A DNA stretch of 64,000 nucleotides from Glaciozyma antarctica PI12 (Eukaryota; Basidiomycota; Microbotryomycetes; Kriegeriales; Camptobasidiaceae): contig KZ627146.1 of NCBI GenBank assembly GCA_002917775.1, forward strand, positions 875,678-939,677, read 5' to 3'. Position numbers and translations under genes: made by a program. Every line of letters begins with the position of its first letter. Positions within the stretch are counted from its first letter, which is position 1. Shown one piece after another: positions 7,587 through 48,251 of the stretch. The notes beneath the pieces are model-generated. The model was given only the letters and a program-made list of their open reading frames with translations. It ran no database searches and was not told where the DNA came from.

Positions 7587-10500
7587 CTACCCGCTCTCCC
7601 TCCCATCTCCCCTCCCCACCTCCCTCCCAAACCCCTCCAACCCATCCTCCGAGCCGCTCAAATCCTGCGCGAGATCCACCACCACCACCTCCTCCTGCTT
7701 CGCGAGATTCAACGCTTTCTCCTCCTCCGAGCTCCGCGCGATATCGAACCCTCTTTCGAACGCCAGATCCCCCGCGCCGTACCCACTCATAAGAGCGTGA
7801 AGGATATCAACGTCGTCGAGAACGTCTTCGACGGCGGAGGAGGAGTCCTGCGCATCGAGCGGAGGGTGATGAGGGGAGAAGATTGGTAGTGGGTGGGGGA
7901 GGGGAGGTCGAGGTCGAGGGGGGAGGACTGTCGGAGGGGGAGGTGAGGGCTTCGTCGTTCGGAGGAAAGTCGTGCAAGGTGGAGATGGTCCTGCGAATGA
8001 GTCAGTGCAAGACAGTCGCTTGGAATTTTAGGGGCTTACCCAGAGGTAGCGAGAGCGTCGGCTTGGGGAGGGAGGTGCGAGTCGGGGGTGGTCAGGGCTG
8101 CTAGGATGATTTCGTCGCTCGGGAGAGGGGGGATGGAGGAGGTCACTCCGTGCGGAGTAGAGCTGGATGATGCAGGTTCTACGGTTCTGCGAGAGTGAGT
8201 TAGCGAGAAATCATCGCAGAGAATGCTCTCACTTACCCAGCGACGTCGTTTCCAATAACCACGAACCCTCGCGTAACCACTCTCGCTATCAACTTGCGCA
8301 TCCCCTCCTCTCGCCTCAAAGCCGGGCAATCGATTATGAGTGGGGGATAGCCCGGGAGACGGAACGGAAAGCAGATTCGAAGCGTGTCGCCATTCTCGCG
8401 TAGGGAGAGAAGTTGCGAGAGGCCCTTGGCGCGGAGCGTCTCCTCGAATTCTTCGACGGCGGTATCGAAATCGCTGAATCTCAGCGGGAGATCTTGCGCG
8501 ACGTCAAGTCAGCAAAACGTCAAAAGGTCGAGAGGATAAAGACGTACGGGCGTCAGCAGCTTCGCGTGTGCGCTGACGAGCCTGCGCGCGCGTTGCCCGT
8601 GACTCTGCTGGCGAAACGGCAGTAGCGAGGTTGAGGGAGCATTTTGAAGCGGAGGGGGAGGTGGTGAGGGGAGGGAGAGTCGCTTTGTCGCTTGGGGGAG
8701 GTGAGAGCCAGTCACTAGACGGCGTGGAGCTGGGTGATGCGCAGAGGGTTCTGCGAAGGGTAGGTTAGCGCGAGATTCTCGAAAGGGATCTTCGTGCGTA
8801 CCCGGTAGCCTTGAGAGCGGTGGTTGAGGGAGGAGCAATGGCGGAGGTCGCGAGAGGGGAATCGAGGGAGTCGGGGGTCGTTAGAGCTGCCAGGATGGCT
8901 TCGTCGCTTGGAGGAGGCGAGATAAACGAGGTCGCTTCGTGCGGAGTAGGGCTGGACGATGCAGGTTCGACGGTTCTGCGAGAGCGAGTTAGCGAGAGAT
9001 CGTCGCAAGGAACCCGTCGGCTCACCCAGCATCCTCGCTTCCTAGAACCACGAGCCCTCGCTCAACCGCCATCTCAACCACCTCTCGGATCCCCTGCGCG
9101 CGATTGGAGCATCGTACGCTGTAGGGACCAACGCGAGACAAGCCGTACGGAAAGCACAGCAGCAGGTCGTCCGCCACCTCGCGGACGACAAGAAGATGCG
9201 CAAGGCCGTTCGCCCGCAGCGTCGCTTCGAACTCGTTGACGGCGGTTTCCAGGTTGATGAATCTCAACGAGCGATCTAGGACGATGTTGGAGTCAGCAAT
9301 CGCCTGAGGGTGGGGGGAGGGAGACCTGCAGATGGTGGCTTCTGCGCGCTGGTTCGCATGTCGACGCGATACCGTAACGTTCGCTTGAGAGAGAAACAGA
9401 TTGAAGGAGGAGCTTGGAGGAGGTACGCAGGTGGCGACGGTCGAGGCAGTCGTTTCGTCGCTCGGAAGATGCAGGGAGGAGGGAGGGGAGGCGAGAGGGA
9501 TCGATTCGTCGGCGAGGGTGCTGGCGATGGGACTGAGAGATTCCAAGGTCGAGTCATCGACCGTACTGGGAAGCGATACGGCGTTAGCCAGCCCTCAAGC
9601 GTCCTAACGAACCGTCAAACTCACCTGACCGTCTCGCTTCCGATGACAACGATCTCTCGCTCCACCAACAGGTCCACCAGTTCTCGCATCCCCTTCGCAC
9701 GGTCCGACTCCAAGCACCGAACGACGGGATGAGAAGGATAGCCCGGCAGCGACACGCTGATCGCCAGCCCCTTGTGTGATTCGAACACTTTGAGAAAGCG
9801 ACTGAGACCTTTCTCCTCCAGCGCAGCTCCCAGCCCATTCGCAGCCGCTTCTGCAGTGACGAAAAGCATTGGCAGAACTGTGGGAGGTAGAGGTACTTAG
9901 CGAGCAATTGGGGCGGGGCGCGGAATGGAGACGCACGGGGTTCGATGGTAGCGCGACGTGCCCGCCGACGCCTTTCCGAAGCCGTCCCCTTGTCTTCCGC
10001 TTTAAGAGGCGGCATTGGCTGCGTAGGCGAGGCGAGCTGGGAGGAAGGTGGCGGATCCGAACGCGCGGGAGGAGACGCAGGCTCGGTGGTGGGAGAGGCG
10101 GATGGAGAGGCGGATGGAGAGGCGGATGGAGAGGCGGATGGAAAGGCGGAGGAGGACAGGGTAGTAGAGGTGGAGGTGAGTGCAGGCAGAGTCGCTTCGT
10201 CGCTTGTCTGAAGGCGGGACGAAGTGGTGAGGGCGAGAGGGACCGATTCGGCGGAGATGGAGCTCTTGACTGCCGCCTCCGATCCGGTAGTTCTACAGAT
10301 ATTCGAAACGTTAGAAATCGCCAAAAGCTCCGCCACCCGCTCGCGCACTCACCCAGCAGCTGTGCTTTCGAGAACCACGAACCCTCGCTTGACCGCCATC
10401 TCCAACACCTTCCGCATCCCCTGCGTCCGATCCGAGCATCGCACAGTGTGGGTCGTGACTCGACGCAGAACGTACGGGAAGCAGAGTATCACCTCATTCG

Positions 10501-12352
10501 CCTCCTCGCGGATGTTGAGATACTGCGAAAGGCCCTTCATGAGCAGCTCAGCTTCGAATCCGCTCACGGCCGCATCGAGATCGACGAAGGAAAGCGGAGT
10601 GACTGCATCAGGTACGGAGTTAGCTGAAGCCACATGGGCGAGAAAGTGAGAGTGGACGCACGCCGTTTGAATCTCTGGCGGCTCGATTCCGTGGGCTGCA
10701 CGGAAGCGTCGGGAGGAAGAGCTTCCTTCGCTCGCTCTTCAGCCCTCGCGGAGATTCGAGCTGAGAGGAGGACCTTCTTCGTCGGCACCGCGATGGGCAT
10801 CGGCAGGTGAGGTAGCCAGATCCGGCTCGGCTTGACGAAGGCGCGGGGATTTGGGCTGGGTGATGAAGGTGGTGCTCGAGGTTGCGGAGGTTTCGACGGC
10901 TTCGAAGAGTTGACAAGAGTGGTGAATGCTGACTGAGGGACGGGTGGGGGTGGGGAGAGCTGAGAGAAAGGAGGTGGGATCGAGAGGGAGGGAGATGTCG
11001 GTTGTTCGATGGGTGCGGATGGTGGCGAGGGAGAGCTCGAAGGCATCGTAGAGGGTTGAAGCTTGACTGTAGGGGCAGGCGGGGGGATTGATGGAGTAGG
11101 GTTCGAAGTAGCGGCGGAGCTGAGAGCGAACATCGGTCAGCTCGCCACAAAGGTTCGAGGCGCGAAGGGACGTACGGCTCGATAAAGATGATTCCCTTCT
11201 TGATGCACTTCAAAACGAGAGTGGTACTGAGCATCTGGCCCTTCAGCTTCGTCACTTGAAGCTTCGGCCAGCCTGGAAGCCCGAGGGTGACGGTGTTGCC
11301 CTTCTCAACAACGTGCTTTCGCAGAGGTCCCGTGAGGCCTGCAATCGCAGCTGTCTTCGTTGGGAAGAAGAGAGGAGAGGGCGCTAATCATCATTGAGTT
11401 AGCTTGCACGACAAGGTCCCGAGGGGCGAGGAACGCACGGGAAAGAGGAGCGGGAGGCTCGATCGCCGCGGCCTCGTTCGACGATGGTGAGAGTAGGCGT
11501 GGCGACCTTGACGACGGATCCAAGGCATATTTGAGCGTCCTGGAGTTGTGTAGAGGCGGAAGGGTGTCCATCTGAGGGTAGAGGAGGAGAACCTCGCGGT
11601 AGAAGAGCGGGGCGAGGAAGTCGAGCACGGCCTGCTGTCCCTTCTCCAGCCAGAGCGCTGCGACGAAAGCCTCGAATCTGTCCGCTACGTCCTTGACGTA
11701 GTTCTCTTCACGCCTTGCGCCCTGGGCAACGTGTTGGTCGAAGCCAAACTGGCGGCCGAGGTCGGCAGCAAAAGCGTTCGAGCACAAGCGCTGGTTTCTG
11801 CGAACGGAGGAGAGTCAGTGATCTTCCTGAGGTGAATGCGAACTTCTTCCAGAAGTTCCAAACCTACGTGGTTTCAAGCCACAAAAGCTCGGGCTTGCCG
11901 CTGGGTGACGGGAGCTCTTTTACAGGCGCGAGGACGAAAATGAGCATTCCGGCAGTGGCGTTCAAGATCCTGTCTCCGACCCACTCCAACCGCTCGTGAT
12001 GATACGCCACATGGTACTTTGAGCGCCAGTTGACGAGCTGGTTAGCCTTCCAGTTGCCGAAGACCTCCTCGTAAAGACGAGGATTTCCGAGAGAGGGGAG
12101 GGAGGTTGGGATAGGGAGGCGGATGGCGCGGCGAATTTGGTCGACTTGGGAGAGAGGTTCTGGTAGACTTCGAGGGACAACGGCTAGGCGATAGGGGAGG
12201 TAGTGGGCGAGGACGGGACGCCAGAGCTCACGCTGCTCCTCGAGCTTGGCGGAAGTTGGAAGCCAGCTCCTCCGGGCGGACAGACGGGGCACGCCGTCGT
12301 GCGAGCCCGAGTCCAAGGTCGTCCTCAGCCGTCCAAGAGCGCGCCGGAGCAT
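7587..12352 (-). CDS. RNase III-domain protein with five copies of an unrecognised ~75-aa module (paralogue A)
   Basis: About 1,200 aa over some 15 exons. Exon 1 (12352-11868) begins MLRRALGRLRTT, a basic start that could be a mitochondrial presequence. The RNase III signature HHERLEWVGDRILN and, in exon 2 (11797-~11440), the second motif KDVADRFEAFVAALWLEKG keep the four metal-binding acids (E, D, D, E), so it may cleave double-stranded RNA. No dsRBD, PAZ or helicase is visible. Instead come five modules, each on one exon: 11383-11176, 10602-10353, 9877-9625, 9275-9026 and 8492-8237. Module pattern: L-x-F, a helix with F-E-x2-L-x3-GLS-x2-L, a strand ending in CFP or LPG, then GMRKLV-x2-AV-x-RGFVVI. 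Ser/Pro/Thr-rich linkers separate them; an acidic tail ends at 7587. Linker exon borders are less certain than module exons. It shares architecture with the gene at 25514-29956. Confidence 0.8.
8098..9030. repeat. Direct repeat from a recent module-linker duplication inside paralogue A
   Basis: The segment around 8098-8240 and the one around 8885-9030 are near copies about 789 bp apart. Each has the end of a module exon, a ~50-nt intron and the start of a linker encoding TVEPASSS(S/P)TPH followed by PSDE(I/A)ILAALTTPDS. The intron sequence is also conserved (both end in CTAACTC(A/G)CTCTCGCAG), so the duplication copied exon plus intron rather than spliced RNA, and is younger than the other module copies. 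Confidence 0.75.
10095..10147. repeat. 12-bp tandem repeat encoding Ser-Ala-Ser-Pro units
   Basis: Four copies of GGCGGATGGAGA (the last with one change) lie in the linker between modules 2 and 3 of paralogue A. On the minus strand they encode SASPSASPSASPSASP. Such arrays commonly vary in copy number between strains and lengthen disordered linkers without changing frame. Confidence 0.85.
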
Positions 12353-12799
12353 CGCGTACACGCACACGGGCGGAGAGCAACGGGACCGAAGCAGGACTGA
12401 GAGCAGGACCACGGCACGTCGTCAGAGGCGTTAAAGTTACTTAGGTTCAAAGAGTACGCACGGGTTTCAGCGCCTGTAAGCTGCTTTCCTCTGTCGCTCG
12501 CTCCACTCGTCGCAGTTCGAACGAGAAAGAGGAAGGTCCGCTCCGGGTTTTTTTTTTGCTGCAGGACCTGCGCCTCGAATTAATTTTTGGGGGTCGTCCC
12601 TGCGTTCGTCCGTTCGCGGCTGTCTGGCCCCCTCTGCTTGCTTTCGTTTGGCGGATACTCTCCAGCTTGCTCTCTCGAAGCGCTACGCCGAACGCCGTTT
12701 CCGGGAAGGCGGGCTCACGGAGGCAGAACGAGCGAGGTACGTTCCGCCGTCCGATCCCCTCCTCCTTTGTTCTGACCGACTCTCGTCAACTGCTCGAAG
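12353..12799. promoter_or_regulatory. Divergent region between paralogue A and the one-module gene
   Basis: Head-to-head gap of about 450 bp between two genes of the same family, likely holding both promoters. It has a run of nine T (about 12549-12557). On the plus strand 12556-12837 is open and could be an upstream exon of the one-module gene, because it is in frame with the exon ending near 13131, but a stop lies between them. No specific regulatory site is recognised. Confidence 0.4.
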
Positions 12800-13877
12800 A
12801 TGCGGCTACTCCGATGCTCGAACGTGACGATACGTAACGCCACAAGACGGGCGTCTTCTACGTTCGTGCTGGTACCCTATCCAGCGGGGTCTCCAGGAGG
12901 ACCACACGCTCCCTCCGCTTCCTCGACGCCCTCCTCAAATCTCGCCAAACCACCTTCCACCGTCCCTTACAAACAATCATCCCCGCCGCCTTCTCTCATC
13001 ACTTCAGGAAGCGCAACTTCATTCCAGACGTCCACTGCTCCCGCCGTCCCGAAACCGTCTTCCAAATCGTCGACACTTCCTCCAACCGCGCGAACAGCGC
13101 GAAGACGCAGCTGCGACGGCACACCGCGCTCAAGCGTACGTTCTATCTTGCATTTTATCGCAGAAGAGACTCACCCTGCTTCCGCAATCTAGATCTCCCC
13201 TTTCGCTTTGCGAACATCGAGGCCGCCGCCAAAGGGTTCGAGCCTGCCTTGATTCAGGCAGATCTTTCGCGCCACCTCTTCAGGACTAAATCAAGAGGAA
13301 CCTTCGTGTTGTCGTTCTCTCTTCCGGACTCCCCCATCTATAAGGAGACCGTGGCGCGAAGCGATCGGACCGGAGTTTGGTTGAGGCTCATCAAGTTCGC
13401 CATCGCTCAACGCGTGATTGTTCTGGACAGCGACCCTACAACGTACGTCTGTGCAACATATTGTTTCGGAGTGTGAGCCTGATCCTGCCTTCTATCTCGC
13501 AGCTCGCCCCTCTCTTCGCCCCCTCCCCTCCACACGCCACCGCCGTCTCTCCCTGCCGCCTCTACCTCTCCTACAGCATCCACTACACCATCGCTAGGGT
13601 CAGTTACGGCAGAACCACCTTCCATCTTTCCCAAATCGACGCCTCCGGTCTCTCCAACTTGTACCACTTTTCCTCCCGACGTAATCACAGGTGGGAGCGG
13701 CAGCGACTGTGGTGTGGCAGGTGCGGCTTCGCAGGCTTCGAAGGGACTGTCTTCAGCAGGTGAGCTTCAGCTTTGTCGTGTCGAGATCGCTGCTGAGGCT
13801 TGAGTGCAGCAGGATTGAATCGCGAGGACGCTAGAAGAAGAGTGGAGGAAGGAGCGAGTAAGGCCACCTCGTCATGA
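12800..13877 (+). pseudogene. One-module relative of the RNase III/module genes, probably a fragment
   Basis: Exon 13193-13442 encodes one complete copy of the module: FRFANIEAAAKGFEPALIQ, then DLSRHLF, LSFSLPDSP, and IKFAIAQRVIVLDSD at the end. It starts in phase 1 and ends in phase 2 like the modules of paralogues A and B. A Pro/Ser/Thr-rich tail follows, with a possible last intron near 13760 and a stop at 13875-13877. No RNase III domain is present. The upstream exon is unclear: the frame required by the splice reads HKTGVFYVRAGTLSS and is cut off by a stop at 12835, while another frame is open and Pro/Ser-rich. I treat it as a decayed or truncated family member; a short functional gene with an unseen 5' intron is also possible. 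Confidence 0.5.
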
Positions 13878-13945
13878 GCAGTATCAACCTCGACTTGATC
13901 GCACTGAAAACCTAATCATTACATTCCCCGCTTCTCCCTCTTCTC

Positions 13946-15008
13946 CTACACTGGCGGGTACTTGGTCGGGTCCAGCTTGTACGTCGTCACCCCCTGCTCG
14001 TTCATCAGCTCCGCACACCGCACCTCGAAAGCTCGAAAACGCACCTTCGCCAACACCTTGAGCGCGACCTTGGCCCTCACAAGCGCCGTGAGCGCGTCGT
14101 TCAGTCGGTGGGTCGGGAGGGAAGTCTGCTTGACGAATTCGGGGACTTGTGGAGCGGGATTAGCGAGGGTGGTAGGAGGAAAGGGGAGGACGTACTTGAG
14201 AGACCGGCAGGCTGAGAACGGAGAGTCGTGACGACCGTTTCGGTCTCGCTTCGTTGCGGCTTCGCGTAGCATGTCAGTTTCGTTCGAAGGAGGGGTGAAG
14301 AGCGGTGGGGAGGAGGACGCACCTGCTGTTCACGAAACTTGATGGGCAGCAGTTGAATGATTCCATCCGCAAACGCCATCATCACATCCTTCTTCCTTTT
14401 GGTCATCACGACCTTCCCTCCCCTCCCTCTCCCTCGGCCTGTTGCTCCTCCTCTCACAGCCGGCTTGGCCGTATCGACGAACGACATGAAGGACGACTCG
14501 ACCTCTGCGGTGGTCTTGTTTCCCGCCGTGTGGTTGTCGTCTGAGGAGAGGGAGGCATGTGAGAAGGTGGGGGAGGCGGGAGGGTAGAAGGAGGGCGGAG
14601 GGTGGAGGGCGGCGGAGAGGTCGAAGTTGAGCTTGGTGGGAGCCTGTAGCTGCGTTAGCTGGCGCTCCAACGACTAGAAGCTATCATGCGCACCTCGTCG
14701 AAATCTGCCGTGTAGGTGTTCATCCTCAGCGCATAGAGGTACCCCGCAAACGCCTCGTTGAACCCATCCAACCCCTTGTTGACTCCATCCAGCTGCTCCA
14801 AATTCCCCGCCAGATCACTCATCGCGTCCGCCAGTTCGGCAAAGATGTGGCCTAGGTGATCGAGAGGAGGTTCGGCGGAGGTTGGAGGGCGGGAACGCGA
14901 GTGAGAGAGGGAGAGGGAGCGGAGGGACGAGGCGGAGAGGCGGCGGAGAGGAGTCGTTGGGCGCGACGAGGGGCGAGAGGTTGAAGCTCGGAGGTCGCTG
15001 GTTGACAT
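13946..15008 (-). CDS. DAM1: DASH/Dam1 complex subunit Dam1
   Basis: Component of the outer-kinetochore DASH ring that couples kinetochores to microtubule plus ends in fungi. Exon 1 (15008-14694) has a Ser/Arg-rich N-terminus and then the Dam1 domain: IFAELADAMSDLAGNLEQLD, VNKGLDGFNEAFAGYLYALR and MNTYTADFDE. Intron 14693-14650 is only 44 nt. Later exons encode a basic, disordered C-terminal half ending KYPPV. The predicted protein is about 320 aa, in the normal range for filamentous and basidiomycete Dam1. Ipl1/Aurora-type sites are likely in the Ser/Arg-rich head but were not tested. The family call rests on the conserved helix block in exon 1; the position of the third intron is less certain. 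Confidence 0.88.
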
Positions 15009-15453
15009 GGCGTGTGCTGTGCTGCTGTTTTGCTGGGTCGGCACCTGAAGGAGAAGTGGAGGAAGAAGAGCAGCGCCGGCCCGCCGAAGTCGCGACTTGG
15101 GCGCGCAACAACAGTATAACAGAGTCTCCTCCGCGAGTGTTCGAGCCAAGCCTTGTACGAGAGTACGTACGTGCGATCCAGTAAGTTACAAGGCGAGCAG
15201 GGCACCCACAGAGAGCTGTTCCAGAGACCCGCCAGCGAGCGCTTCTCCCTGCGCGCGCGCGCCTGCCCGCCTGCATCGCTTTCGCTCCTCGAGTTGACGA
15301 GCGCTGCTCTTCCTCCTCCTCCCATCTCGCCAGGACTCCTCGTCGACGCCGACGACATCAGGAACACCGGCACTAGCACAGCAGCAGCAGCACCGCGCCA
15401 CCTTCCTGCCCGTTCCTCTTCTCTCTCCAACACGCTCGCCCCTGTCGAGGACG

Positions 15454-18400
15454 ATGGCCTACCCCAACTACCCTCCTCAAGACGCCTACCCACCTCCCGA
15501 CCCCTATTCCGAACCTCCCTTCTCCCCTCCTCCCGCCCCAGGAGCAGGCTACGCCTCCCCTCCTCCCCGGTGCTCACCCTCGTCGCTCCCAAGCCGGCGG
15601 GCATGTCGGGTTCCAGCTACACGACAACCCCATCAACTCCAACTACCCTCCTCCCCAGCCTTCCTACGGCCACCTTCCTCAAGGTCCCAGCGACTACGCG
15701 TTCGACCAGCAGCAGCGGTACGACCAGCCGTGGAACACGCCTCAACCTCAGCAGCAGTATCCCTACGAACCTCAACCACCGTACGATCCTCAGCAGCAGC
15801 AGGGACACGACCCGTTCAGGGATGATCACGATGAGCCTCAGTTGCCATTGCTGAGTGGGGGAGGGAGGGGGTATGCGGATCAGGGATACGGGCAGCCGGG
15901 GCAGGGGCCTATGGTCGGTGGATTCGCGGCACAGCAGGAGGAGGAGAGCCAGATTCGGTACGGGAGGATTCCGCAGAGGCAACCGAGGAGGTACAAGACG
16001 GTCAAGCGTGAGTCGCGCCTCTTTGCTTGAGCTCGCTGGGGAATGGGAGCTGGACGGAGTCGAGAGCTGGAAATACGAGAGCACGCAGCGGGGAGTGCGG
16101 AAGAGCTGGAGGATAATGGTGGAGATGCTCTCCCTCACCGGGGGTGCTGGAGAGGAAGGAGGAGGCTCGGGGGCGCGTGCAGAGCTGCGTGCTAACCCTC
16201 ATCGTTCTCCAGGCGTCGAGCTCTACCACGGCAACCTTGTACGTTCTTTCTGTCCTGATCGCATCTCCCAGTCCCCAGCTTAACCTCTCTGTGCAGGTCC
16301 TCGACTGCCAAGTTCCTCCGAAGCTCCTCGAGCGATGCCCTCTCAAGACGGATCGCGAGTTCACGCACATGCGGTACACTGCTGCTACCTGCGACGTGCG
16401 TGCTCAACCCTTCTTGGAAAGCAAGCGAGCTGATATCGTACTTCCACACAGCCGGACGACTTCCTCGCCGAACGATACTCGCTCCGCCAGATTCTGTACG
16501 AGACCCCTAGGCGGACGGAGCTGTTCCTTGTGTTGACGATGTACAACGTGCGTTCTTCTCCTCCTTACTTTCCATAGACGCTGACGTGGTGAGCAGGAGG
16601 ACGAGGTACTTTTCTGTCGAACGATGCACGGAGTTATGAGTGAGTTACATTTTGCGAAGCTCGTGCGGAGCCAGCTGACCCGTCTCGCAGAGAACGTCCA
16701 GCACCTTTGCTCCCGCATGCGTTCGAAGACCTGGGGTGCAGATGGGTGGAAGAAGGGTGCGTCTGCTCGTTCATTCCGCAGGACAGCAGCTGAACCTCTT
16801 CACGTTCAGTGGTGGTCTGCATCGTCTCCGACGGCCGAGCAAAGATCAATTCGCGCACGCTCAGTGTCCTCGCTGCGATGGGAGTCTACCAGGACGGAGT
16901 GGCGAAGAATGTCGTTGCAGGAAAACCTGTCACCGCGCATCTCTACGAATATACGACGCAGAGTCCGTTCCTCTCCCCACGCCGCGATGAACCAAATCTG
17001 ACGCTACGAACAGTCTCCATCGACCCCGACCTCAAGTTCAAGTCGGCCGAACGCGGTCTCGTCCCCGTTCAGATCCTCTTCTGCCTCAAGGAGAAGAAGT
17101 GCGTCCTTCCTACTCCCTCTCCTCGCAGGCACTGACTCCGAACAGCGCCAAAAAGATCAACTCGCACCGGTGGTTCTTCAACGCCTTTGGACCGATCCTC
17201 CAGCCGAACGTCTGGTGCGTCTTCCCTCCCCGCGAATGCGAGGTGGTGCTGATGGAGTTGCAGCGTCCTCCTCGATGTCGGGACCCAGCCCGGTCCTACG
17301 TCGATCTACAAGCTGTGGAAGACGTGAGTTCCTGCTCGCTGCGCGTGTCGGAGAGGTCGCTGATGAAAAGCAGGTTCGACCTCAACTCGAAAGTCGAATG
17401 TCCCTGTGGAGAGATCGTGGCCCTCAAGGGGAAGTACTTCTCGAACCTGTACGTTATTTGCCACGGGCGCACAATCGGGAGGAAGCTGACGTGGAGAGGC
17501 GCAGGCTCAACCCGCTCGTGGCGGCGCAAAACTTCGAGTACAAGATTTCGAGTACGTTCCTCTCTTCAAGCAGCTGTTAGATGGCTCCTGACGTTCCGTC
17601 CTGCTGCAGACATCCTCGACAAGCCTCTCGAATCGGTCTTTGGGTACATCACCGTGCTGCCCGGAGCGTTCTCGGCCTGTGAGTCCCTCCTTCTGCAAGA
17701 CCAGGGACGCGAGCTGATGCAGGTAATACAGACCGCTACATTGCACTGCAGAACGACCAGAAGGGCGAGGGACCGCTCAGGGAGTACTTCAAGGGCGAGA
17801 CGCTGCACCACAGCCACGATGCGTAGGTCACTTCCGATATCGGTGGAAGTGGTTGCTGATTCATTTTATCAGCGATCTATGGACCAAGAACATGTATCTC
17901 GCAGTACGTTGACATTCCCGCGAGCAGGAGCATCTCGCTGACATTTGGTGGCGTGGACAGGAGGATCGGATTCTCTGCTGGGAGCTCGTGAGCAAGCGTG
18001 GCTCCGCCTGGCTCCTCCACTACCAGCGCTCCGCCTACGCAGTCACCGTGCGTCTTTCTCACCACCTTTTCGACCCCGCTCACTCGTCTGCAGGACGTTC
18101 CCGACCGCGTGCCCGACCTCATCTCGCAGCGCCGTCGCTGGCTCAACGGCTCCTTCTTCGCGAGCATCCACTCGTCGTACCACTTTGGATACCTGTACCG
18201 CTCGGACCACACGTTCTGGAGGAAGCTATGGCTGCACGTCGAGCTGTTCTATCAGGCGTTCAACATGCTCTTCGCTTGGGTGAGTTCGCTCGCTCCTTTT
18301 TTTTGCCTGTGTTGGGAGCTAATGCGCTTGTACTTTCGCAGTTTGGGCTGGGGAACTATTACATCATCTTCATCATTCTTACTCAGTCGCTGTACGTGTT

Positions 18401-20177: not shown

Positions 20178-20521
20178 TAGCCACGACTTCTTCACGAGCT
20201 TCACGAACCCTTTTCTACGCTTCCTCTTCGCACCATGGACCTTTCCTCAGTCAATTCATTTCGATTTTTGAGCATCATCGCACGGTGCAGAACTTTGACT
20301 TCATTCGCGCTCGGCAGCGCCAATACGATCTCTCGTCCTGTTCTGAGCAGTACCTTCGCAGCGAAGAACGAGCAGAGGAGGAAGGAAGAGACACCTCACC
20401 CTTGCCTCCAGCTCGTCGCCGTCGTCGTCTGTTTTGTCCGACTCGGCCCGTGTCCTCGTCTCAACGTCGACGGCGCTCTCCCTTCTACCCACCACGCTCG
20501 ATGGGACAAGCGTAACCAGGA
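20178..20521. other. Gap between chitin synthase and a small gene, no gene seen
   Basis: About 340 bp on the same strand. Open frames here are Arg/Pro-rich and look like frame shadows. It should contain the chitin synthase polyadenylation region and the promoter of the next gene; no distinct element was recognised. Confidence 0.4.
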
Positions 20522-20913
20522 ATGGTCCAACTCTTCCGCCTTCGATGCGCCAGCCTCCCCCGTGTCTCCCTCGCCAGGCCGGCCCCCCATCGCCCGAGCT
20601 CCACTACCTCCAACTCCTCCTCCGCCTCCCCCAGCACACCTTCCGACACACCCGCCGCAACAGCCTCCTCGGCACAGATGGCCGTCGAAACAGAGCGGAA
20701 GCCCACGCTCGCCGAACGTGACGCCGCCGCGCTCAAGAGGTTCGAGGAGAGGTTTGGAGGACAGGAGGCGACGGCGCTGGGCGTGCTGGAGGATGGCAAG
20801 CCGGAAGGACTGGCGCGCGCAGTGAGGAAGAACATGTTTAGGTGAGCTCGATTTCGATGTTTGAGGGTGGAGCGGAGCTGACGAGCATTGCTAGGGTGAT
20901 TGGGAGCGGGTAA
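20522..20913 (+). CDS. Small unrecognised protein with a probable mitochondrial presequence
   Basis: Two exons, 20522-20841 and 20895-20913, joined across a phase-2 GT-AG intron to give 112 aa. Residues 1-50 (MVQLFRLRCASLPRVSLARP followed by Ser/Thr/Pro) are basic and hydroxylated without acids, which is typical of a matrix-targeting presequence. The C-terminal half is charged and helical: LAERDAAALKRFEERFGG, then KPEGLARAVRKNMFRVIGSG. The tiny last exon keeps the frame and ends cleanly, which argues that the gene is real. I do not recognise the family; small assembly factors of respiratory complexes have similar size and layout, but that is only an analogy. Confidence 0.55.
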
Positions 20914-21262
20914 TCCAGCTGGGTTGCGAGCACGCGTGCTGCTTTGCGCGAGGAGGCGCTCTGCCTGTCGAGTCTGCTTGCTTACAAAAGGTCGATCTGC
21001 TCAAATGGTGGTGGTCTGCGCGGTCTCTCTCTCCCTCTGCCGACCTGCTGGGCACCGCACAAGCCTTTCAAGCGCAACCTCATTGCCCCTACTCCTGCTG
21101 AATCTTACCCTGCTCCGGCTCCAGCTCGCTAAAGTCGTACCTACTCACACAGTCAGCTTTCCAAACCCCAGCTCAAACGCAGACGACTCACACAACGCAC
21201 GCCGGACCCCCCTCATGCCACCTCGTCCCAAACGCCGTCTTCGCATACATCGCATCCCTCGA

Positions 21263-22985
21263 TCACTCTTCCCCGGTGTACTCCTCTCCGCCGAGCGCGA
21301 AGAGAGAATGCTTCGGTTTGCTCCACGCCATCTGAACGATCTCGAGGTTGCCGCTGCTGAGTTCGTAGACTTCGGAGGCGGAGCGAGGGCACCAGGTGCG
21401 AATACACTGCTCCCGCTTGCTGCTCGAGAAGATGGCTGCGACCGAAGTGTTAGCGAGCTCGATACCCGACTCGCCGCAGAAGAACGCACTCGTGATTTCT
21501 CCAATCGCAACAATCTCGCACGCCACTGCCCTCTCAGCCTCAAACAACATCGACCGGCGTAGGCTTCCTAATATCGAACAACCTCACGCAAGACTCCCGC
21601 CGTAACATACAGCCAAGGCTCGTCCTCGCTCATCTTGATATCCTCGACCGGTCCTCCACGCCCAAGGTAGCGATTCGAGATCGCGCCTGTCTCGAGGTCC
21701 AGATCGACGACTTGGTACGAGATGGAGGAGTAGTCGTGCTCGACCTCGGCAGCGAGGAAGTTCGCCTTCGTTCCCGTCTTGCGAGTCCACTTGCCAGGAC
21801 GGAATTTGCCGCCTTCGATCGGGATGATGGCGGGAGGAGCGTGGTTGGAAGTAAGGGGATTCCAGACTGCTAGCTCGCCTTTGCCGGCGCGAACGAGGGT
21901 CGAGTTGATGAGAGCGAGGGGGCCGAGGGAGGGGTAGTGGAGAGTGTGGAGGAGGGAGATGCTGGAGGGAGGTCGGTTCGAGTCGGAGCTGCGGTAGCCG
22001 TTCCAAAAAGTCGCGTCGTCGAAGCTAAAGCGGGACACGTCAGGATCAGGGAAGTGAGGGAGGCGACGAAGGCAGAAAAAACGCACGAGAAAGCTTTGGT
22101 CGTCCAAGCGTCCGAAACGCAGAGGAGCTTCCTCTCCTCGTCGATAATAATACTCCTGAGGTGTCCTTCCAACCCATGGCCGACCTCGCCAAACGCGGGA
22201 ACCTTCGCCTTCGTCCCGTCGAGATTCGTCGTCCTACCGAGGAGCAACCAAGGCTTCTCCCCCCTCCTCAGGATCCCGGTGTAGTAGGCTACGTACTTCC
22301 CACTCGGTTAAATGTCGAGCTTGAGCGGACCATCCAACGTGCTACTCGAGTAGATGGCGCAGCGAGCTTCGCGGAGGGGTTGGAGGACGGGGTGCGAAGG
22401 GTAGAGGTCGACGATAGGGCGGCGAAGAGCAGTCGTCTCAGGCGAGGAATTGGGGAATCGGGAGAGGCGATAAGTGAAGGATGATGGCGCTGTCGAGGGG
22501 TTCCACTGGCGCAACGCCATGATCTCGCCCTTGGGCTCCTCGCTGCCCGCTGGACGGCGAGATGATCAGCTCCGACTCGCTCCTCCGCTGAAAGACGTAC
22601 GGTGGTACATCTCGATCGTGTCGAGAAAGAGGTCCTGCCCTAGTATCGACATCGTGTTGTACTCGCTCCCAGCGGCCTTGACGAGCGGTCTCGACGAGGA
22701 CGACGGCAGCTCATCCGTCGCGACGGGGTCTTGCGCGCCGTGCCCACCCCCGCAGGAGTAGACGTACTCGGTCACACGGTCGAGTAGAGATCCCGCAGCG
22801 CTGACGAGGTCCTTTGAAGCGCCTGGCTGCTCGACGAGGAGGAGGGTGTCGCGGAGGAGAGCGTCGCGTGAGGTCGCTACTGCTTCGTACACTTCCTCCG
22901 AGTCGATCGCTGATTCGTTATCGTCCTGAAGCTGGGAGAAGCGTTCTTCGAGCTCTGCAATGCGGTCGCCTGAGGTGTGATCCAT
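21263..22985 (-). pseudogene. WD-repeat-like gene, broken copy A
   Basis: Starts MDHTSGDRIAELEERFSQLQ (coiled-coil head), followed by a helical region and then WD-like blades: LLLGRTTNLDGTK, IIIDEERKLLCVSD, LVRAGKGELAVWNPLTSN, YQVVDLDLETGAISNRYLG, EDEPWLYVTAG and CIRTWCPR. The gene at 33867-35708 is a paralogue with the same exon order. Compared with that copy, the present one has an in-frame stop before SGKYVAYYTG and small indels after the YVTAG block, so a full-length protein is unlikely. The remaining frames are long and GC-rich, so decay is recent, or some breaks are sequence errors. A scaffold role would be typical for WD proteins, but no specific family is recognised. Confidence 0.6.
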
Positions 22986-23196
22986 GGCGATGCATGAGGA
23001 GCGAAAGGAGAGGTGCGAATTGTTCGCAAGTTCAAACTTTCAAGGGGAGACAGCTGAGGCTCTCCTTGCGCAATCCAACAGCTCCAGAACGACAAAGCCT
23101 GGATCCAAGAAAGAGAAAGAGACACCGAAGAATAGCGGAAACAAAACGACATATAACCTTGCGAAGCGACAACACGACCTCTTCCCCTCATCCCGC

Positions 23197-24813
23197 TCAT
23201 TCGTCCTCGGACCATTCCTGCTCCGCCGCACTTCTCCTCGGCACCGCATCCTCCCAATGATCCTCCCATAGCCTATGGCCCGAATCGACTCTCGTTCCCG
23301 CCTGCTCCGCACCGCCGTACGCCTCCGACAAGCGCGCGAGAAGCGCCTCCCTCGTCTGCAAAAGATGGCGCAGATGATCGACCGCTGCACGGCAGAAAGC
23401 GCATTAGCTCGATCCTCACCCATAAAACGCAAAGACGAGGAACTTACTCTTGCCCAATACGACCGCCTCGCTCTTCGGTCCCGCCCTCCCATCCACCTTC
23501 TCCCCTCCAATCTCAATCCCACCCATCAACGCCCCCTGCCCACTCCCTCTCCTCTTCTTCTCCCCCTTCCCAACCTTCTTCACTCTCTCCTCAAACTCCT
23601 CCACCGCCGCCCTAAGCGCCGGAACGACGCTACAAAGCCCTTCGTAACCCGATCGAATCGCCGCGCGCCGTTTCTGCTCCGAGGCGATGTGGTTCGCCTT
23701 CTTTTGCGCTGTGCTGAGGAGCGCGGGCTTGCTCGTTGAGGTCGAGGGAGCTGGGCGAGGAGGAGGAGGAGGGGGAGCGAGGATTGGGGCGCGGGGGAAG
23801 GAGGGACGAGGGCCTGGGGGGGAGGGAGGAATGTTGGAGGGGGTTAGAGCGGGAGGGGGGTTGTCGGCGGAAGGGATGGAGGGAGGAGGAGGGGGGAGAC
23901 GAGGAGAGGCCTTGGGAGCTTTACGCTTTGTCGCAGTGGGTTTGGGGATCGGGATGGGTGCGGGAATGGGAAGAGGAGCGCGAGAGAGGGGTATGGCGGG
24001 TGCGCTGGTCGACCGGGATGGTTCGTCGGTCCGCGAGTTGGCGCGTTTCGCGAAGCCTGCGCGGAGCTCAGCCTCCCTCATGAGGAGCATCGTGTCCCGC
24101 TCTGCCTCACCGACAGCCAGAGGTGGTCGCTCGTCGAAAGCGCGACTCCGTTTCGGAGGACTCCCGTCGGCCATCTCGTCGTCCCTCCTCCGTCCTTCGG
24201 CGCGACCTTTGCCCTTCCTAGTCGGGTCCACGTCCCCGCGCGAGGCCATCCATTCCGCCAGATCCCGCGTTTGCTGAGCCATGCGCGCCTTCTTCTCTTC
24301 GTCAATCGAGGAGAGGGGTTGAGAGGGGTAGGGAGCCGGAGGTGGTGGTGCGTATGAGGTCGCCGAGGCAGCGGAGTAGGAGGCATAAGCTGGGCGGGCA
24401 GGTGCGAAAGAGGCGGGGTAGGAGGAGGCGGGGTAGGAGGAGGTGGTGATGGGTGCTGGATAGGAGTAGGAGCCGTTGTGCGGAGCTTGGTAGGGGTGAG
24501 GATTGGGAGGGAGGTGCTGGATCGACGAGGTCGAGGGGTAGGCTTGGTAGATTGACGGTGTCGAAGTGGGAGGTGGTCCAGAGTACAGAGCTGGCCTGTA
24601 CGTGTCGTAAGTCGGGTAGAGACTCACTGGCGGCCCTACCCTCTCGCGGGAAAGGTCCATCCCTGGTCCACCGGGAGCTCGGCCACCCCACCCCGCCCCT
24701 CCTGCATCCCTCGAATGACTGCCGTCCAACTCTCCTGGGCTGTGTCCGTCCGAGTTGAAGGAGTCGAGGAACAGATCAAAGCTGCGCGCCTCGCCTTCGG
24801 ATAGGATGTCCAT
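23197..24813 (-). CDS. bHLH transcription factor
   Basis: Two exons, 24813-23448 and 23384-23197, with the intron placed in the loop/helix-2 part of the domain. The N-terminal ~330 residues are disordered (Tyr/Pro/Ser- and Pro-rich). The basic region and helix 1 read KKANHIASEQKRRAAIRSGY, with His, Glu and Arg at the spacing that contacts E-box CACGTG. A loop of about 40 residues, rich in Lys and Gly, is followed by helix 2, KSEAVVLGKTVDHLRHLLQ, and a short acidic C-terminus ending WSEDE. The long loop is like that of fungal bHLH factors of the INO4/Max/SREBP size class, but the exact orthologue cannot be told. The nucleus is the expected location. Confidence 0.85.
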
Positions 24814-25513
24814 CGCAAAGTCCTCGTCGTGGCGTGGAGGTCACGAGGTCGGCCTGAAAAGGGAGTTGGCTGGAAGAGAGTGGTTCGAGTCGACTCCAGA
24901 GTGGGCGGGGGCGAAGGTGCGTGTACCGGGGAGGAAGAAGGATGCTGGTCAACGGGGCAGAGGAGCTCGTCGAGGAGGGGAGAGGGGAAGGTGCGGTGGC
25001 AGCTGAAATCGAGGGACTCCTTGGAATGCGTCGATAGAGCAGCTGAGTACTGGTCCTGCTGGGGGTGTTGGCGCTAGTGTTCCTGGTGAACAGGACGGCT
25101 GGAAGCTGGACAAAGAACAGCGCCACGCCCTCGCTCAGCTCGGAGCAAGCTGACCCGGCGGGCCACTCGGCGCCGTTCTCGCTTCGCACAACAAACTTTC
25201 CTGAGCCGCTCATACTGCTGAAATACACACGTATCGTACAGGCAGGATCGAGACTGGACTTGTGAGCTGCGACTCTGCGCTGAGAGCTGTCAAAAAAGCG
25301 CCGTTCTGCCCGAGGACAGAGAGCTGCCCTCTTCCCATACACACTGCTCGCTGGTCGATACCCGGACTCTTGACGGCGCAGGCCAGTCTTTGGTTGAGCT
25401 ACAACGATCGTGCGTGCTCTTCAGGATCCATGGGGTGGCCCATCTGACGGGTTGGTCCTGCGCACAGTTTTGCTCGGTCTTCGGCTTGATTCTGGCGTAG
25501 ACGAACGAGCACG
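24814..25513. promoter_or_regulatory. Divergent promoter region between the bHLH gene and RNase III paralogue B
   Basis: About 700 bp between two divergently transcribed genes. A minus-strand open frame crosses it (24776-25342), but it runs into the bHLH start in another frame and shows no family resemblance. Promoters and 5' UTRs of both genes are expected here. I see no convincing extra gene. Confidence 0.4.
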
Positions 25514-28500
25514 ATGCTCAAGCGCGCCCTGGGACGCCTTAGAACGACCGTAGGATCTGCTGCAAAGGATGTCGTTGGCCGCCCGTCCGTCCTCTCAGCC
25601 TCCGACTGGCTCCGAAGCTCCTTCGCGGACCAGCGCAAGGTCTGGCGTCCCATCCTCAAGCACTACGTCCCGAACCGCCTTATCGTCGTACCACGCGATA
25701 GTCCGGAGCACCTCTCCCCGATCGAGCAAGTCCGTCGCGCCTGCCACCTAACCATCCCGACCTCTCTCCCCTCCCTCGACAATCCCCGTCTTTTGATCGA
25801 GGTTCTCGGGAACTGGGAAACCGGAACAGGAACAGGGCGTCTAGGCTCGGTGTCGCCCTATCATGCCGCGTACCATCACGAGCGACTCGAGTGGTTCGGC
25901 GATCGAGAGCTGAACCTCGTTGCGGCGAAGGTGCTGTTCGTGATGGGGCCCGTCTTCAGGCTATATACGCCAACCTCTGATCCGCGCCTAGCTTGGCACA
26001 ACTCGGAGTACGCCCGCACCACCTCGTCACCATGTTCCGAGCAGCTAATCTTCCCGTTCGCAGGTACTTCGCCCTCACCAGCAACGCGTTTGGCGCCTCG
26101 CTCGGAAAAGAGTTCGAAGTCGACCGCAATCTCCATCATCCCAGCGAGAAGGATGTCGCGGACCGATTCGAGGCGTTCGTCGGCGCTCTTTGGATTTCGA
26201 AGGGGCATCAGGCGACGCTCGAGTTCCTCGCTCCACTGTTCCACCGCGAAATGCTGGCGAGGACGCCATCTTTCGACAGCCTTCCACCTCTTGATCAGCC
26301 GCTCGTCCAGACAGGGGCTTTCGTCTCAAGCTCTCCGCCGGCACCCTCGCTCGAACCCTCTTCTTCCGAGATCTCAGGTTCGTCTCTCCATAGTGTAGAA
26401 GATGACACGACTGATCGCTGAATATGTTTGCAGGACCGCTCGCCTCTAGTCTTGCGCAACCTCGTCCTTCGCCGTTGACCTCTCCGCCGCCTCAAGTCGC
26501 CACGCCGGGAAGTCGTGCTCCATCGCCAGCTGCGAAAGAGACACCGAAGTCTCCCACCGAGGTCTTCGTTTTTCGTAAGCCGCTTTGCGCCTCGCTCCCG
26601 ATCCTCGCTAACTATCATTCACAGGAACTATTCGACTGTGCTTCCCTACGCTTATTCAAGCCAAAGCCGACTTCCTCACCGAGCTTAGCGCCCAAGGACT
26701 ATCTCAGCACCTCACGCGCAGCGGCAGATCGCTGTCGCTCAGGCTGCCTGGGTATTCAGCAATCATCGTAAGGAAGAAGAATCAAGGCATCACACCAGGC
26801 CTGGTCGGAAAGATCATCGAGGGAGGAATTCGAGCGGGGTTCGTCTCCATCGAGGAGTGAGTTTGCGTCTCTCCTGCTCGCTCGATTGAAGAGGCTGAAC
26901 TTCTCTACTCGCGGAGCAATTCGACTTCATCTACCTCTCAGCCCAGCACACCCTCTACCTCAACCGCGCCCCCGACTCCTCCGGCTTCCGAACCCACCCC
27001 TCCCGAACCTTCCGTCCCTCCAACACCTCCCGCACAAGTCCCTCCTCTCTGTTTCAGAGCTCTCCATTTGGCCTACACCGGGCTCGGTCGTGAACTCTCG
27101 AAACGATCCTTGTCATCATGCCTGAGCGTCGCCAAGGGCGGCGCCCTGTTCCTCGATTTGCCAGGATGGGATCGCATTGAGGTCGACGGGAAGGGAACGC
27201 TAGCGACGCGCAAGCTCGTTGACTTCGCTGTGGAACGGGGGATGGTCGTAATTGGCCAGTGAGCATCTTCATTCGAGGGATCGAGCGGGAGCTGATTCGC
27301 CTTCTCGCGCAGCGGCGTCGCAACGACTTCTTCGGACTCAGCAGACCCAGCTCCCAGCCCTTCTGCGGATCGTTCGAAGTCGCCCCCCGAGCCACGTAAA
27401 AGCGGCGGACAGATCTCGGTTCGCAGCACGTCGGTACCCCCACCTTCGTCCCAACTTTCTCCTCCGCCTCCTCCGAAGTCGCCAATTCGCACATCCTCAG
27501 CCACGTCTTCGCCCTCCCCTCCTCCTCCCTCGCGTGTCACCAACTCTACGCCCGTCACTTCTACGAAGCCGAGCTCGCTCAGCCTACCGCACCTTCCTTC
27601 GCTCGTCAAGTCGTCGCCGGAGACGAGCCTGCGATCATCAGCTAGCGTACCTAAGAAGCCTACTGCGTACGTCGCGCTAGCTTGTGCGCGTAACTCGGGC
27701 TGACTTTGTCGTTGTCGTCTTCAGGGAGAAGCCGAGTGCGAAGTGCGTTTCTGCGTCCTGCCAAGTCGCTGCTCGCTGACTTGGATTCTATGTACGCAGA
27801 CCGACTGCCGGCAAGGACGGAGCAGCATCTGCGAGCGCTTCTTCGAGCAGTTCTTCCAGGCCTGCATCAGCAGCAGGTCTCGCGGCCGGCGTGTCCAAGA
27901 CCCGTGAGCTCTCGCCTCTTTCTTCACAGAGTGTTCCTAACTCAGATCCACGCAGCTTCCTCGTCTTCTCCAACTCCCTCGGTTGCTGCCACTCCTGCTA
28001 CGACGCTTCCCGCCGGCGTCTCAATCGAATTTTACGGAGCCCCGCGCGTACATCGTCCGACCGACCTTTACGGTGAACCCCGTATGTTGTTCACTTCCAC
28101 CGCGTTGCAGGAGCAGCTTCTGACGCCTCTGTGCGATTTAGTCTCCCCTCTCCGTCCTCTCCGCCTGCCTAGTTCGAACGCCGCTGAAGAGCTCGAAGCC
28201 GCTCTCGAAAAGCGCGGCCTCTACGACTGCTTCTTCGCAAGGCTCGGCTCGACCGGAATCTACTCGCAGTCGCTCAAAACGCAGGGCCCCAAGCTCGAGG
28301 TCTGGGGCCAGGCTGCCGATTGGAGAGCTGCTCTTCAGGCGCTCGTGGACACAGCAGTCAGCGAAGGTTACATCGAGCTGGACGACAAGGCGTGCGTTTC
28401 GTTTCTCGTTTGACTTTTGATACGTACGTACTGAGGCCATGCTTGCAGCTTCGCTCTGCCGAGCTTTCTGGGCTCGATCACATCGCTTGACCAGCGGGAG

Positions 28501-29956
28501 ACGCTACCTCGTTCGTCGTCGTCTACGCACTCGAGTGATTCCGAGCTCACCTCGCACCCGCAGCTGGGGTTCTTCACTTTGCGACGATGAGAAAGGCTGT
28601 CAGCGCGCTCCAGACTGCTCTTCTCGGCCCTGGACACCCCGGTTCCAGCGAGTTACTTGCGCCACAGAGCAAACCATTCCTCCGCCTTTCCATCCCCGGC
28701 CACGGTTCAGTTTATCGGTCAGCTCGATCGAATGATCCGCGATCTGTCGCTGCTGCTCTGGCCAGACTCGTGCTCGATTCCGTCGTGCAAGGAGCGATAA
28801 CGTTGGATCCCAGCTTGTTCGTTCGCCATTTCTGCACTCGCGAACCTCTTCGCTGACTCGATTATACGCAGCGATCCCAGGATTGCCTCGGCCGCAGAGG
28901 TGTGCGCGTTCCTCGCTGACGAACGTCAGCGTGTTCGCTCATGTACGCCTCTCGCGCTTCTTTGTGAGCACAATACTCATCAAACACTTTACAGTGCTTC
29001 CTCTCCAACTCCTTGACGACGAGAACATGCCGTTCGCCGACTTCGAAGTCTCCCTCAAAAACGTAGACCTCAACCAGTACTTCCGTCATTCCTGGCACTT
29101 CGAGAACCACCCTACGCGCTCGCTCAGCCTCAGGCTACCATCTGAGCCGTCCATTCGCCTCGCTTTCCAGCGAGGCATGGAAGCGCAAGGAATGCGGGAA
29201 TTCCTACTTCTGGCAGCGGAACAAGGCGTTGTCGCGTTCGGACCGAAGGCGTCAGCTCAGTCCGTCGCCCTAAGATTTCGATTACTGACTGTCGTTGTCA
29301 CGCAGCAACCCTCTCATCACGCCGGTGTTACCTACGCCGACGACTCCTAGCATCGCTTCGCCACTCCGTAAGCCTCTCGCTGGAGCCCGCATTCGCTCTC
29401 CCAGCTGACGCTTCTTCCTCGCGCAGCTCACATCTCGCCACGTCGAAGCGAAATCGCCGAACCTACACCTGGCGATCCTCCCACATCGACGTTCGAACGC
29501 CACATTCCTCCCCCGAACGACGTCGAAGACGCCTCGTCTCCCATCCCCGCCTCCCTTCCCGACCCACCCACCTCCGAAACCGCCTCTCCTCTCCCCGTCA
29601 CCCTCACCGACGCACCCTCAACGCCCTCCCCCGAACCCCTCGCCGGCCTCCCCTCCAACGACTCTCCCGTTCTCGCCGAATCGCCCGAGCATCTGGTCTA
29701 CGAGCCGGTGACGCGAGACGTCGTTGCGGCGTTTGAGCCGACACCCGAATCGACTGGTCGCGCGGTGGAGCCAACTCCCAGCGAGGGGGACTCCTCGGGG
29801 GATCAGGGAGCTCCCTCGAACGAGCGAGCGGCTGAGGAGCTTTCGGGCGTCGTTTCTACCGAGGCGGAGGTGGTGCAGGAGAGCGGAGCTGCTGGTGCGA
29901 GTTTCGTGGAGGGAGGCGGTGAGGAACGAGCAGGGAGCGAGGGAACGAAGATGTAA
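25514..29956 (+). CDS. RNase III-domain protein with five copies of an unrecognised ~75-aa module (paralogue B)
   Basis: About 1,200 aa in roughly 15 exons. It begins MLKRALGRLRTTVG, matching paralogue A. RNase III motifs are HHERLEWFGDRELN (exon 1, 25514-26007) and KDVADRFEAFVGALWISKG (exon 2, 26065-26379); all four catalytic acids are kept. Five modules follow: on exon 26625-26856, on the exon ending 27258, on exon 27954-28391, on exon 28564-~28820 and on exon 28995-29250. Endings such as FVSIEE, MVVIG, YIELDD and VVAFG align with VVIGS of paralogue A. Ser/Pro/Thr-rich linkers lie between modules, and an acidic, Pro-rich tail closes at 29954-29956. Frames join cleanly throughout. The modules have diverged more from one another than those in A. 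No dsRBD, PAZ or helicase is visible. Role unknown; dsRNA processing is inferred. Confidence 0.8.
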
Positions 29957-47409: not shown

Positions 47410-48251
47410 ACGGGCGTTAGGGGTTTGGAGGAATCGACGGACGGAGCTGTAGGAGGGAACGGGGTGGAGATGGAGAAGATGGCGAGGGAGGAGGAGGGCA
47501 ACCATACCCTTTTCGGAACTCGTTGATCTGGTGATATGCTGCTATGAGACCCATAGGAGCACGCTGTCCGACTTGAGAGAGAGAGAGAGAGAGGAGATTC
47601 GCTGGCGCCCTTGCTTCAGCTGTCGCGCGTCAAGTCGACTTGGGGACGACTCTCTCCCTCCTCCCTTCTCCTCGACTCGTCTTTACCGCACCACCGACAG
47701 CAGCTGCTCAGTCGCCAGCTCCTGCATAGCCCTCTCGTCAGCCGGCGCAGGACCTGGGACACCGCGAACGCCAGACGAGGACGCAACTCCGCTCTCAACC
47801 TGCCTCGACGCCCTTCGTTCGCCAACCCAGGGGGCTCTCGCTCACCTTTTGCGCCAGAACGAGAGGCATCTACTCGCTCAGCTCCTCTACTAGCGGCGCT
47901 CCTCCCTCACTCGACGTCCACCTTCCACCTCTCCGCTTCGAGCTTTCGCGAGGGTCCCCGCGTTCACGTAACTCGACCTCGCCAGCAGATCTCGTCGAGG
48001 TACAGCAGTTGCTGAGTACCGACGCGACTTAGCGAAGTTAGCACCCTCATGTGTGAGTCCATCGCCACCTCGAGGAAGCTTCTGGCTCAGTGAGGACCCG
48101 TGCACCAAGCTTGACACTCCCACCACCTCTCCCCAGCTCGCTGCAAGCCTTAGTTTACACCGACATCACCTCCTCCCCGTCGACAGTGTCTTCGCCGCTC
48201 ATCAAGGTGTGCATCGCTCTCTGAGGAGCGTGCGACCCCTTGAGCTAATCC
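47410..48251. other. Gap between RPL6 and the RdRP gene with a (GA)n microsatellite
   Basis: Contains a GA dinucleotide run at about 47575-47593. Ser/Arg-rich open frames (47611-48015 and others) lack resemblance to known proteins but could include 5' exons of the RdRP gene, because a GTGAGT donor-like site follows an ATG at about 48050. Nothing firm can be annotated. Confidence 0.4.

Follow-up and report, generated by a model that had tools for sequence, protein, structure and literature searches.

Two paralogous RNase III genes of Glaciozyma antarctica, each with five predicted copies of a module new to the libraries searched

The 64,000-nucleotide stretch of the Glaciozyma antarctica PI12 genome analysed here (contig KZ627146.1, positions 875,678 to 939,677; hereafter the window) contains two paralogous genes, A and B, on opposite strands, each predicted to encode an RNase III domain close to its N-terminus followed by five copies of a module of 70-85 amino acids (aa). 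Together with a single copy in a third gene, C, this gives eleven copies. As far as can be read from the DNA, genes A and B are two real, intact-looking RNase III genes whose repeated module is new to the libraries searched.

The RNase III domain is recognised by several profiles. The N-terminal pieces of A and B match PF00636 (E=3.8e-6 and 5e-4 respectively), as do the full-length proteins (2.5e-5 and 0.015), with only the gene A N-terminal piece passing the Pfam gathering cut-off; the NCBIfam RNaseIII model gives E=9.3e-10 and 2.5e-8, both under its equivalog cut-off, and hhalign against bacterial RNase III gives E=5.1e-8. A PDB search with a joint profile of the two domains yields 19 sequences at E<=10, every one an RNase III enzyme by name, with the best scores for 6v5b ('Ribonuclease 3', 2.7e-8), which we take to be Drosha, and 9asm ('Drosha', 3.8e-8), followed by 7dey ('RNase III', 4.6e-6), 5t16 (8e-4) and 4oog (9e-4), both presumably yeast Rnt1, and Dicer-like 3 (0.019). 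Alignment with Escherichia coli RNase III and 30 bacterial relatives places E. coli residues E38, E41, D45, D114 and E117 at E120, E123, D127, D201 and E204 of gene A, and at E123, E126, D130, D198 and E201 of gene B. With the domain and all five acids present, membership of the RNase III superfamily can be assigned to both predicted proteins, and the preliminary description of one N-terminal RNase III domain with its metal-binding acids is borne out by the PF00636 and PDB matches and by this alignment. Each full-length protein has a single RNase III stretch in Pfam and no dsRBD (double-stranded RNA-binding domain), helicase or PAZ match at E<=1, in agreement with the earlier remark that the dsRBD sequence signature is absent. 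The N-terminal regions of A and B are 54% identical, and values of dN 0.43 and dS 1.45 (nonsynonymous and synonymous divergence, NG86) over 240 codons indicate that they are under constraint.

The models of genes A and B were built by joining open frames by hand through GT..AG introns, which are 49-70 nt long. A CTRAB branch-site motif is present in 23 of the 26 introns (12/12 in gene A and 11/14 in gene B), as against 5.8% of 5,000 random 55-mers drawn from the exons of the two genes; the introns that do not contain it are all in gene B (26857-26916, 28511-28563, which directly precedes module b4, and 28943-28994). The RNase III exons are joined to the first module exon through one intron of 55 nt in gene A, between 11439 and 11383, and two of 56 and 50 nt in gene B, between 26377 and 26434 and between 26574 and 26625, all with a branch site. 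Codon usage, scored with six other open reading frame (ORF) stretches in the window as the training set, ranks the chosen frame first of the three forward frames in 21 of the 28 exons (10/13 in A, 11/15 in B); in the exons of modules a3 and a5 one reverse-strand frame slightly outscores the one used. Because of these scores the reading of the linkers, and above all of the gene A C-terminus, is less certain than that of the domain exons. The last exon of gene A ends in this model at an in-frame stop at 7807. An end at 7587, as first described, lies in a different frame and the junction it requires could not be placed, leaving the 3' end uncertain; the length of about 1,200 aa given for both paralogues fits gene B (1,222 aa), while gene A is nearer 1,290 aa.

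The module copies were compared by a leave-one-out test, in which a profile of the other ten is run against every six-frame ORF of at least 25 aa in the window (1,447 in all). Ten of the eleven are recovered, with E-values of 4e-21 to 3.2e-4, and each outscores all 1,000 of its shuffles. The remaining copy, b4, has E=0.85, which is the top score among ORFs without another module and is matched by 3/1,000 shuffles. Five copies after the RNase III domain in each paralogue, and eleven in all, had been claimed from the outset, and the claim stands with b4 as a marginal member. The copies form an A-type (a2-a5 and c) and a B-type (b1-b5 and a1), whose profiles, both taken from one joint alignment, match at E=1.3e-17. 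In the models an intron that directly flanks a module is in phase 1 where it precedes the module and in phase 2 where it follows, and this applies to b4 too. Gene A also contains repeat units of 235 nt (77% identical; the end of a module, an intron and a linker) and 241 nt (71% identical; the body of a module), repeats that show its array to have expanded by the copying of exon, intron and linker together.

Table 1. Coordinates of genes and modules in the window (positions are those of the 64,000-nucleotide stretch)
Feature	Position	Strand	Description and evidence
Gene A	7807..12352 (3' end possibly 7587)	-	RNase III and five modules; 13 exons, 1,290 aa; branch sites and codon usage
Gene A exons 1-2	11439..12352	-	N-terminus and RNase III domain, aa ~85-235; intron 11867-11798 inside
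Module a1 exon	11176..11383	-	aa 283-351; leave-one-out E=3.2e-4; isoelectric point (pI) 10.3; phase 1/2 introns
Module a2 exon	10353..10602	-	aa 505-587; leave-one-out E=4e-21
Module a3 exon	9625..9877	-	aa 707-789; leave-one-out E=3.5e-19
Module a4	9026..9276	-	aa 887-970; shares exon 9565-9026 with the preceding linker; E=1.2e-18
Module a5 exon	8237..8492	-	aa 1097-1181; leave-one-out E=8.2e-19; AlphaFold2 model 1
Gene B	25514..29956	+	RNase III and five modules; 15 exons, 1,222 aa; branch sites and codon usage
Gene B exons 1-2	25514..26377	+	N-terminus and RNase III domain; intron 26008-26063 inside
Module b1 exon	26625..26856	+	aa 318-394; leave-one-out E=2.4e-10; pI 10.2
Module b2	27038..27258	+	aa 435-508; leave-one-out E=5.4e-12; AlphaFold2 model 2
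Module b3	28144..28391	+	aa 730-812; leave-one-out E=1.5e-5
Module b4 exon	28564..28816	+	aa 834-916; weakest copy, E=0.85; upstream intron without branch motif
Module b5 exon	28995..29250	+	aa 942-1026; leave-one-out E=7.8e-7
Gene C	~12800-13803	+	Head-to-head with gene A; one module; end near 13803 probable, read from sequence
Module c	13195..13442	+	Single copy in gene C; leave-one-out E=2e-11; codon-usage frame scores
RNAi-type RdRP gene	~48244-52751	+	PF05183 matches in three ORF pieces (profile positions 1-153, 320-399 and 423-538)

Searches of Pfam, NCBIfam, PHROGs and the PDB sequences give no significant match to the module, in agreement with its first description as unrecognised. The lowest E-value, 0.0087, is that of ARMC9_LisH in a5, followed by isolated others at 0.037-0.038. 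We regard the ARMC9_LisH match as chance, in that it covers 21 residues in one of the eleven copies, scores 16.7 bits where the cut-off is 27.3, and has its E of 0.0087 with the full-length protein and 0.057 with the single module; a PDB sequence match to shikimate/quinate dehydrogenase (E=0.037), absent from the fold-search matches listed, is likewise attributed to chance. AlphaFold2 models of a5 and b2, computed from 11-row alignments of window sequences, have mean predicted confidence (pLDDT) values of 89.3 and 94.7 and share the predicted order beta-alpha-beta-beta-beta-alpha-beta; the order first proposed, alpha-beta-beta-beta-alpha-beta, is thus present as a core in both models, preceded by an N-terminal strand that it did not include. 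Foldseek searches with the two models, of which the best 50 matches listed per search were considered, give template-modelling (TM) scores below 0.5 throughout, the best E-values being 0.075 (a5) and 0.19 (b2) in the PDB and 0.044 (b2) in BFVD. Among those listed, a5 weakly matches three chains from ribosome entries, 5mmj_y, 7m4z_v and 5x8r_y, which are presumably HPF-type factors, and an HPF/YfiA fold was dropped as a candidate when hhalign against 31 HPF rows scored 10.1, inside the range of shuffled controls (mean 9.0, max 14.3, n=60). Relatives of gene B exon 1, a5 or b2 were not found in IMG/VR, nor relatives of the joint RNase III profile (the module was not part of this search) in the GTDB genomes; as these are viral and prokaryotic collections, this says nothing about fungi.

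The linkers consist of 57-60% proline, serine, threonine and alanine, compared with 24-29% for the modules. Modules a1, b1, b2, b4 and c are basic and the remaining six are neutral or acidic, such that of the eight copies that follow the first in their gene, six are neutral or acidic and two, b2 and b4, are basic. Six copies of a motif resembling PSDEAxLxALTT were noticed in the gene A linkers (at aa 616, 824, 992, 1047, 1203 and 1240), where 0.06 are expected and 0/5,000 shuffles do as well; the gene B linkers have none. It may serve as a linear binding motif or have arisen incidentally as linkers were duplicated. Another gene A linker feature is a 12-nt tandem repeat at 10064-10175, which gives SPSA repeats in the protein and possibly varies in length between strains.

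An RNase III domain was not seen by eye in gene C. Its 5' part is poorly accounted for, as a model with the first exon tried fails to keep the frame of the module; an exon may be missing from the model, or the gene may be degenerate. About 18 kb beyond gene B lies a gene for an RNA-dependent RNA polymerase (RdRP) of the RNA interference (RNAi) type, with a DLDGD motif that can be picked out by eye in ORF 51350-51928. Two further ORFs, 21571-22233 and 34157-34735 (both on the minus strand), have no Pfam match and share a similar short stretch by eye (DDATFWNGYR and DDETFWGTKP), which suggests another local duplicate pair. The window also contains a chitin synthase piece, ribosomal protein eL6 and short introns, as fits a fungus.

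The domains, the catalytic residues, the repeats, the intron phases of the models and the linkage of RNase III to modules are found in both paralogues. We give about an even chance to the interpretation that these are class-1-like RNase III enzymes in which the dsRBD has been replaced by a tethered, multivalent array of five modules, the module being either a new domain or one diverged beyond recognition. The products of genes A and B would cleave double-stranded RNA by the metal-dependent mechanism usual for the family and, because each has one catalytic domain, would be expected to act as dimers. The place of the class 1 C-terminal dsRBD would be taken by five small domains of predicted beta-alpha-beta-beta-beta-alpha-beta fold, held by long tethers that are rich in proline, serine, threonine and alanine and probably disordered, and such an array would confer multivalency. 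The gripping of RNA would fall to the strongly basic first module, beside the catalytic domain, and the binding of partner proteins or the choice of substrate to most of the later ones; the array itself would have arisen by duplication of the module exon, which lies between phase-1 and phase-2 introns, together with its linker. Most likely the chemistry is ordinary RNase III cleavage and the novelty lies in the array, the module of which may bind RNA or partners in a way not described before. A more specific proposal, that the module is an undescribed RNA- or partner-binding domain which replaced the dsRBD in one fungal lineage and was multiplied through exon duplication, giving a new RNase III class, with gene C encoding a stand-alone relative that serves as an accessory factor, is tentative and its chances fall somewhat short of even.

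Several points weigh against replacement of the dsRBD by an RNA-gripping array. Net charge is zero or negative in 6 of the 11 modules, unlike typical RNA-binding domains, and those of gene A are near neutral overall (12.4% lysine plus arginine, 11.6% aspartate plus glutamate); because b2, b4 and c are basic as well, a basic charge is not peculiar to the first position. Among the fold matches listed for a5 and b2, none reaches E<=0.001 with a known nucleic-acid-binding domain. Constraint on a2-a5 is only moderate, at a dN/dS of about 0.4-0.7, and seven of the 28 exons (linker exons and the last exon of gene A) have no codon-usage support for the chosen frame.

The modules could instead be true dsRBDs that have diverged past sequence recognition, making A and B class 1 enzymes with five dsRBDs in an extreme form of the R3B2/RTL2 layout, an explanation that we consider unlikely and yet worth taking seriously. 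Both models contain the alpha-beta-beta-beta-alpha order of the dsRBD core, and the array starts just where dsRBDs sit, after the catalytic domain. HicA has a dsRBD-like fold, and b2 weakly matches, among the BFVD matches listed, a HicA-like protein (TM 0.47, rank 14) and an RNase III (TM 0.43, rank 31), while DCL4 is second among the PDB matches listed for a5 (TM 0.39); however, all of these fall short of E 0.001 and of TM 0.5, and the part of the target that matches is not shown. Both models also have an additional strand at either end, Pfam gives no dsRBD match at E<=1, and the hhalign score of the module against 29 bacterial dsRBD rows (10.9) lies within the range of column-shuffled controls (mean 9.2, max 12.8, n=60). 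The dsRBD resemblance noted at the start thus persists in the order of the core elements and is not backed by profile scores or by close fold matches among those listed; a dsRBD origin is possible at the level of the predicted fold, without sequence support.

A role in RNA silencing, with A and B as non-canonical Dicer-like or R3B2-like nucleases, is rather improbable. The RdRP gene in the same window indicates that silencing probably exists here, and R3B2 of Mucor, also a protein with a single RNase III domain, works with RdRPs (PMC4395119). The RdRP gene is nevertheless separated from gene B by about 18 kb and other genes, and neither A nor B combines its single RNase III domain with a helicase, PAZ or dsRBD match at E<=1 in Pfam. 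Microbotryum lychnidis-dioicae, from the class of the red yeasts, has a Dicer in which helicase, dsRNA-binding and RNase III domains are combined (PMC4469406), so that A and B need not be the Dicer.

Quite improbable, in our estimate, is a mitochondrial role, in which A and B would be RNase III enzymes for mitochondrial RNA or relatives of the mitoribosomal proteins mL44 and mL57. In composition the N-termini resemble a mitochondrial presequence, being rich in arginine and serine/threonine and poor in acids, with lysine plus arginine against aspartate plus glutamate at 7/2 in A and 6/1 in B over the first 30 residues, and 5/0 in the frame tried for gene C; A and B agree at 11 of their first 12 residues. 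The gene C N-terminus, however, is in a frame disfavoured by codon usage, and the amphipathic moment is no higher than in shuffled sequences (28%, 21% and 14% of shuffles score as high for A, B and C), for which reason an amphipathic N-terminus was discarded as proof of import. In two PDB searches the 19 and 13 sequences at E<=10 include no mitoribosomal chain, and genes A and B retain the catalytic acids, which mL44 has lost. That the RNase III domains and the modules belong to separate adjacent genes is very improbable, since, even with every exon join made by hand, the order is identical in two diverged paralogues, the short joining introns all have branch sites, as do most of the others, the frames are open and the phases recur.

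Taking the dsRBD-replacing array as the preferred interpretation, A and B can be compared with the described types of RNase III. Class 1 enzymes (bacterial RNase III and yeast Rnt1) share with them a single catalytic domain and the five residues of E. coli RNase III, and differ in having a dsRBD C-terminal of the catalytic domain, for which A and B have no recognisable equivalent, and in having no array of five modules on long linkers; E. coli RNase III is 226 aa long compared with about 1,200-1,290 aa here. Drosha RNase III domains score best in the PDB against the joint profile, with both of them aligning to the single domain of the query, but Drosha has two RNase III domains and a dsRBD, and Dicer has two RNase III domains and usually a helicase, PAZ and DUF283, whereas A and B each contain a single RNase III domain and none of these others at the Pfam threshold used. 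The nearest described layouts are those of R3B2 and Arabidopsis RTL2, as presented in one report (PMC4395119). R3B2, a fungal protein, also combines a single RNase III domain with multiple accessory domains, although these are two dsRBDs and its signature is altered where A and B have canonical acids; RTL2 has a single RNase III domain of canonical signature and a repeated accessory domain, again two dsRBDs rather than five unrecognised modules (PMC4395119).

The arrangement was originally said to be absent, as far as known, from the established RNase III proteins, and none of the types compared has such a layout. The portions of the open-licence PMC literature consulted contain no description of it, and neither do sections 2.2 and 4.2 of a survey of 1,592 fungal proteomes that classes Dicers by domain loss (PMC12663654). 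Transcription of genes called Dicer and Drosha is reported for Rhodotorula frigidialcoholis (PMC8692454), and it is a guess that this 'Drosha' is an orthologue of gene A or gene B.

The module offers a discrete domain that lends itself to expression, some 70-85 residues long and with a confidently predicted fold, and it can be tested in two paralogues of a single fungus. A dsRBD is the common means by which RNase III enzymes grip RNA, and intact catalytic residues joined to a five-fold array of a different kind would show an RNase III re-tooled for different substrate recognition. If an undescribed domain has indeed replaced the dsRBD, genes A and B would define a new RNase III class in which a multivalent array recruits the substrate.

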